A DNA stretch of 64,000 bases from NCBI GenBank assembly GCA_025454795.1, contig JALONT010000002.1, positions 57,848 through 121,847 of the forward strand. The letters run 5' to 3'. The notes under the pieces are model-generated. The model did no database searches, was not told where the DNA came from, and saw nothing but the letters and a program-made list of their open reading frames with translations. Positions 40,316 to 41,038 of the stretch are shown here, piece after piece. The first letter of the stretch is position 1. Every line of letters begins with the position of its first letter. Origin of the DNA: Bacteroidales bacterium. Lineage in GTDB: Bacteria; Bacteroidota; Bacteroidia; Bacteroidales; VadinHA17. Both the position numbers and the translations under genes were made by a program.

Positions 40316-40826
40316 TATAAAACAATAATGGGAACTATTCTTGCGAGTAGTTCCCATTCACCGTTTACAGCCGAGGCCGCATACGGCGTCGGATTACTGT
40401 TATTCTGACCGGTTGCATTGCAGGTCTTACGATCTGTTCCTGCAACCCATGGCTTTCGGGTTGTGCTTGTTACAGCATAACCTTTCGGCTGTCCGTTTTT
40501 TCCGTCTCACGACGGACTTTCCCGGACGAAATGTCATTCAGGCTCCATTGCACATTTCCCGAAGGATTTGGCTCTGGTTCCAGGTCATTTGGGGCCGAAG
40601 CCCTTCATTTTCTGAGGCCCTGTGACTCAGTCGCTGAAAGAACGTTTCCGGTTTTCGTCGACTTACTGAACACCCGGTATTGGTCTGGGACCAGTTCCCT
40701 TCGCTCAGGTTTCGGCTCTCTTGGTGCGCAGACCCGAGGGTCTGGATGAACCGGATTGTGTTTCATTTAAGTAACCTTTTCCGATTCCACATCTTTCGAG
40801 CAGTCTTTTATCGCTCACCCGATAGA
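40316..40826 (-). ncRNA. Candidate large structured non-coding RNA, class not recognised
   Basis: Promoter TTG-N19-TAAATTTG directly upstream, terminator-like hairpin at the 3' end, no credible ORF, dense hairpins with GNRA/UUCG-type loops. Confidence 0.6.
40327..40358 (-). terminator. Terminator-like hairpin ending the candidate ncRNA
   Basis: Minus strand AATGGGAACTACTCGCAAGAATAGTTCCCATT then ATTGTTTTAT. Confidence 0.65.
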
Positions 40827-40827
40827 C

Positions 40828-40858
40828 CAAATTTAATTCAAGTATGTCAAAAAACAAT
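40828..40858 (-). promoter_or_regulatory. Bacteroidetes-type promoter for the candidate ncRNA
   Basis: Minus strand ATTG, 19-nt spacer, TAAATTTG (exact TAnnTTTG match). Confidence 0.65.
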
Positions 40859-40965
40859 AAAATAGACTTCCTTGTTGTAAACCCGATATAAACATATGTT
40901 ATCAACAATTGTTAATAACGACGGAAAATATGAAAGGATGGCTTATTCTTTCTCTCTTGCTGCAT

Positions 40966-41033
40966 GTACTCACCCCCAAGCCCCCTCTTTCCGCCGACTG
41001 GCGGAGAGAGGGGGAAAAGAAGGGGGTGAGTAC
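40966..41033. repeat. Long palindromic element 5 bp downstream of the eno stop
   Basis: Outer 12-bp perfect arms GTACTCACCCCC/GGGGGTGAGTAC; inner ~14-bp arms CCCCTCTTTCCGCC/GGCGGAGAGAGGGG. Confidence 0.9.
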
Positions 41034-41038
41034 GTGAA

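Follow-up and report, generated by a model that had tools for sequence, protein, structure and literature searches.

The ornate large bacterial RNAs OLE, ROOL and GOLLD are long, stand-alone and highly structured; their peripheral domains are rich in tetraloops, and no general function has been agreed for them (PMC12286853). RNase P RNA and tmRNA, which are similar in size to the RNA described here, usually occur in one copy and likewise have paired ends and a variable periphery. Structured RNA candidates from the same bacteria include Bacteroidales-1 and the other Bacteroidetes motifs of Weinberg 2010 (PMC2864571). On the DNA side, clusters of DnaA boxes outside oriC are represented by datA, DARS and DnaA-regulated promoters. 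The locus analysed here shares features with each of these: it encodes a predicted RNA of about 505 nt and carries a DnaA-box-like cluster away from oriC, upstream of the promoter.

Locus and transcription signals

The predicted RNA occupies 40317..40823 on the minus strand of the window (the whole 64,000-nucleotide stretch of DNA analysed) and is flanked by eno and ubiD, both Pfam-confirmed and co-directional on the same strand. Its −33 element TTG (40855..40857, minus strand), assigned on the basis of the sigma-ABfr consensus (PMC7366714), is followed 19 nt further on by the −7 element TAAATTTG (40828..40835, minus strand), with the start site expected near 40823. The intrinsic terminator AATGGGAACTA...TAGTTCCCATT-ATTGTTTTAT (40317..40358, minus strand) forms helix 15 of the genus alignment described below and is 100% paired. 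GC content is 50.1% in the RNA versus 40.5% upstream and 43.2% downstream. A previous sequence-only reading of this stretch had reported such a promoter, a terminator hairpin and some 500 nt richer in GC than the neighbouring spacers, and all are present. A simple sigma-70/terminator scan missed both the promoter and the terminator, its consensus being unsuited to this phylum.

Upstream of the promoter lie the palindrome TTATTAACAATTGTTGATAA (40899..40918, minus strand), composed of two inverted DnaA-box-like sites, and two weaker direct half-sites, TGTTTATAT and GGTTTACAA (40872..40898, minus strand); relatives keep the same spacing and often have TGTGNATA there. Farther out, just 3′ of eno, a long imperfect inverted repeat (40961-41038) draws spurious miRNA-model matches and is probably the eno terminator or a palindromic repeat.

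Fold and pairing within the genus

The native fold is far more stable than shuffled versions of the sequence (z = −5.96; 0/100 shuffles as stable). By blastn the RNA is found in 52/57 congeneric genomes and in 0/40 genomes from other Bacteroidales families, and genus loci long enough to include flanks place it beside eno and ubiD. An alignment of 30 sequences from the genus (A1) yields 15 helices with 96.5% of cells paired and 33 pairs with two-sided changes. Covariation in A1 is 0.237 versus 0.147 ± 0.004 when shuffled and ≤0.06 when slid. A compact member of the RNA family (L207) has a modest fold advantage over its shuffles (z = −1.58).

Across six frames of the 30 homologues no reading frame is kept, the longest stop-free runs ranging from 28 to 152 aa, which rules out a protein-coding reading and bears out the earlier view that the stretch holds no credible ORF. 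The homologues are neither decayed genes nor transposons, and the strong covariation among them answers a test of the ncRNA call that had been set beforehand. As far as sequence comparison can tell, RNA pairing over several hundred nt is clearly under selection, and the structured RNA is almost certainly real.

The individual hairpins proposed from the single sequence fared unevenly. The sequence elements of all nine are present, but in A1 these hairpins are 84.9% paired, below the 96.5% of the 15 alignment-supported helices, and four have clear support in the alignment, namely AGACC/GGTCT, GGGC/GCCC, TCCGTC/GACGGA and the terminator. The 5′ bases assigned to a local TATCG/CGATA hairpin instead form a closing helix, P1, with the 3′ end. 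Only 9/30 relatives have any letters at the place of TGGTC/GACCA, GAAATGT/ACATTTC is 73.5% paired and unsupported by the alignment, and TTGCAGG/CCTGCAA (58.1% paired) is outdone by GGTTGCA/TGCAACC (90.5%). AGCC/GGTT pairs frequently, but it lacks two-sided changes and is in competition with helices that have better support. Those outside the four are specific to the window or compete with helices that the alignment favours, and about half of the nine are not conserved. That first description lacked P1, the array of boxes upstream and the RNA's wide distribution.

Conserved core

The core consists of P1 and a near-invariant internal loop (GAGNGAUAAAAG / AAUAACNGUA), around which the peripheral domains vary. 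P1 pairs the two ends of the RNA: its 5′ strand, TCGGGT (40817-40822), belongs to the 5′ box ATCGGGTGAGCGATAAAAG (40805..40823, minus strand), and its 3′ strand, ATCCGA (40389-40394), to the 3′ box AATAACAGTAATCCGACGC (40386..40404, minus strand). The helix occurs in 58 distinct covarying versions, among them TCAAGT-ACTTGA, CCAAGT-ACTTGG, TCAGGT-ACCTGA, TCGGGT-ACCCGA and CCGAGT-GCTCGG, and is 97.4% paired, with a covariation of 0.573 versus 0.355 ± 0.021 when shuffled. The A-rich strands of the internal loop (also written GAUAAAAG/AAUAACNGUA) are almost invariant across loci, and across members the two boxes read AYCRRGYGAGNGATAARRG (5′) and AATAACNGTANCYTGRC (3′).

The 3′ core (40386..40543, minus strand) was modelled as R1, built from a 29-sequence alignment that extends beyond the genus; two-sided changes are seen in 25/28 pairs, covariation is 0.454 versus 0.184 ± 0.013 when shuffled, and the window's copy scores 141.6 bits. 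The penultimate hairpin CGCCGTATGCGGCCTCGGCTGTAAACGGTG (40359..40388, minus strand) has two-sided changes in 7/11 pairs. Measured from the first base of the 5′ box to the last base of the 3′ box, the loci span about 190 to 1040 nt, so the peripheral domains are optional. In a Prolixibacteraceae MAG (L063:2501-3613), an insert that may resemble a group II intron stretches the RNA to over 1 kb.

Genomic context

Neighbouring genes are lineage-specific and differ between families, and homologues retain a promoter and terminator of their own whatever their location. Since the neighbours change in this way, the RNA does not behave as a cis-element, and very likely it is a trans-acting stand-alone unit. 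Its co-directional placement between eno and ubiD would suit a cis-regulatory RNA, either in the 3′ UTR of eno or in the 5′ UTR of ubiD, but the RNA has its own promoter and terminator, and in sister genera and other families it lies away from both genes, so that this explanation is scarcely credible. Among the neighbours of the loci examined, no conserved gene for a protein partner was seen beside the RNA.

Distribution

Three signatures were searched for in 394 genomes of the order. R1 matches 37/394, and 30/30 loci fetched with it, even those near 25 bits, show the 5′ and 3′ boxes at plausible spacing. The 5′ box alone matches 55/394 (reversed control, 0), and all 30 of the 30 loci fetched through it also have the 3′ box; among 398 genomes sampled across the phylum, only the window's own genome matches. 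One additional 5′ box pattern match, in G294 (L244), is a chance match and not the RNA. The upstream palindrome alone matches 81/394, with one control match, and its search led to 16 further genomes in which the RNA has a more divergent 5′ box (for example ATCAGGCCAGCGATAC in family f6, GTCAGGTGAGCGATAAAAGG in f84), in each case followed by a 3′ box-like sequence, a penultimate hairpin and a terminator. That the palindrome predicts RNA genes provides an independent confirmation of the RNA family.

In union, the covariance model, the 5′ box and the palindrome place the RNA in 79/394 sampled genomes from 31 families, a lower bound for the order that includes a few matches by the model alone. A GTDB pattern scan has, among the matches listed, Draconibacterium orientale, D. 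sediminis, D. aestuarii and D. mangrovi, Prolixibacter denitrificans (two copies), Sunxiuqinia, Maribellus, Mariniphaga and many Bacteroidales MAGs. The distribution within Bacteroidales is patchy, at about a fifth of the sampled genomes, and the RNA is therefore either dispensable or often undetected. Members cluster in this order, but its border is not sharp, because L323, a locus outside the order but inside the class, combines a clear 5′ box with the array and promoter. In L323 and two further loci from other orders of the class (L320 and L321), the array and promoter are followed by RNA-like sequence, and the latter two may be far relatives of the RNA.

Several genomes carry more than one copy. 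The two copies of P. denitrificans (L151) are 2.2 kb apart, those of Bacteroidales 6E (L158, also L075/L122) are adjacent, and those of G095 (L169) are 1.5 kb apart, with possibly a third; in family f8 (G064 and G177), two divergent copies are dispersed in one genome. In Marinilabiliaceae MAG16, a dispersed repeat on several contigs, CGATAGCTATCGGATGAGCGATAAAAGATCGCT, mimics the 5′ box (L086, L094, L100, L106, L130, L131). These pattern matches are not the RNA: one of the six was read and is another repeat, and the other five give no significant match to the model.

The patchiness, the change of genomic position between families and the presence of two or more copies in some genomes, some of them in tandem, would be expected of a mobile or selfish RNA element such as an intron, an omega-RNA or a retron-like element. 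Against this, there is no linked ORF, most genomes have a single copy, the position between eno and ubiD is fixed through the genus, and neither an Rfam intron match nor a phage match was obtained, which makes a mobile element very improbable. A single IMG/VR pattern match was put down to chance and viral carriage was rejected.

Upstream array

Among relatives the array opens with TTATTAACAATTGTTNATAA, continues with two more half-sites and mostly starts 95-98 bp before the 5′ box. Of 106 distinct upstream regions, 96 contain a palindrome match, though the neighbouring genes differ. In the 3.29 Mb genome of the window the palindrome is unique at 0-1 mismatches, its one site being that upstream of the RNA.

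The complete chromosome of D. orientale gives the array a possible meaning. GC skew reverses its sign at about 1.93-1.94 Mb. Within the 640 kb sampled, TTATNMACA sites are densest at 1,929,000-1,929,312, at this skew minimum; the cluster contains TTATTAACA twice together with TTATCCACA, TTATACACA and TTATTCACA. Since the densest cluster coincides with the minimum, TTATTAACA is used at the probable oriC. The promoter of the D. orientale RNA, at 421,393, lies 1.5 Mb from the origin and carries these boxes too. OriC-type boxes stand at a fixed distance from the RNA promoter. The RNA locus as oriC itself was considered and rejected, as at 0.42 Mb it lies inside a constant-skew arm, away from the minimum.

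The palindrome also precedes dnaB in three genomes (L262, L272 and L273, about 90 bp upstream), which suggests DnaA-controlled dnaB in some Bacteroidales, and in L293 it is found beside DUF4175, a neighbour of oriC in D. orientale. Because the same boxes mark the probable D. orientale oriC and precede dnaB in some relatives, the simplest reading is that the array probably consists of DnaA boxes, and control of the RNA promoter through them seems likely. In several families (L268-L271, L276, L277, L288-L291) the palindrome adjoins a conserved gene whose secreted-protein-like product has no Pfam match, and in most of these loci the opposite side is taken by a LOG-family gene; they are possibly oriC or another DnaA-regulated site.

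Other proteins could bind the half-sites, which vary and lie one or two positions off the classical TTATCCACA, and the DnaA reading is drawn from sequence. An RNA with a housekeeping or regulatory task but no connection to replication, whose array binds another dedicated regulator or acts as an enhancer that gives strong expression, would account for this, as well as for the palindrome occurring only at the RNA in the window's genome, as the site of a dedicated regulator would. The clustering of the same box variants at the probable oriC and their position before dnaB speak against it, and we regard this alternative as unlikely, though a serious one. A box cluster away from oriC could also be primarily a DNA element, that is, a DnaA-titrating or DnaA-reactivating locus (datA/DARS-like) with the transcript as by-product. 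Selection clearly acts on the pairing of several hundred nt of RNA, and promoter and terminator are retained; both facts are at odds with this reading, which we consider very improbable.

Proposed role

The best explanation of the locus as a whole, supported by the agreement of the three signatures (model, 5′ box and palindrome), is in our judgement a trans-acting structured RNA of a new Bacteroidales family whose synthesis is tied to DnaA, a reading that we hold to be reasonably probable. DnaA would bind the upstream array and time or tune transcription of the RNA with the replication cycle. The transcript would fold around the P1/internal-loop core, the conserved loop serving as a functional or protein-binding centre, and, probably together with a partner protein whose gene lies elsewhere, might have a scaffolding or regulatory role in the control of replication, the cell cycle or growth. 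That the role of the RNA is itself tied to replication or the cell cycle is a tentative suggestion. More speculatively still, it could be an RNA arm of replication control: DnaA would directly switch on the RNA, and the P1/internal-loop core would bind a protein of replication or the cell cycle, which might be DnaA itself, and would adjust initiation to growth.

A large structured RNA that has a near-invariant core, persists in some 31 families of one order and is absent from Rfam likely has a basic task. The DnaA-type array at a fixed promoter distance would, if confirmed, couple this structured RNA to the replication initiator. D. orientale, which is cultured and has a complete genome with one copy of the RNA, makes two questions testable: the task of large bacterial RNAs, and the way in which replication is coupled to physiology in Bacteroidota.

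Comparison with known systems

Rfam 15 gives 0 matches in the window at the gathering threshold and only weak ones at E up to 10, mostly miRNA models on the inverted repeat outside the RNA; in 15 divergent homologous loci, it gives nothing within the RNA. The suspicion of novelty thus withstood the Rfam search, and the original call, a stand-alone structured ncRNA of a class that could not be named, is supported by the promoter and terminator, the covariation and the lack of an Rfam match. No prior description was found in the open-access literature (subscription papers and most preprints fall outside this scope).

RNase P RNA and tmRNA, which the sequence-only reading had already discounted, differ from the RNA in that both are elsewhere in the genome (RF00010, 225 bits, contig C32; RF00023, 132.5 bits, contig C62) and their signature sequences are absent from it; ARAGORN finds no tmRNA in the window. 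The Bacteroidetes motifs of Weinberg 2010 that have Rfam models gave no match. Neither the window nor the divergent loci show a sequence or covariance-model match to OLE, ROOL or GOLLD, and, unlike these, the RNA has an order-level distribution in Bacteroidales, a DnaA-box-like array and a core made by pairing of its ends. It differs from datA, DARS and DnaA-regulated promoters, with DnaA binding here putative, in that the product is a covarying structured RNA and not a protein or a bare DNA site. Unrelated as an RNA class to any catalogued one, it broadly joins the known kind of large structured bacterial ncRNA.
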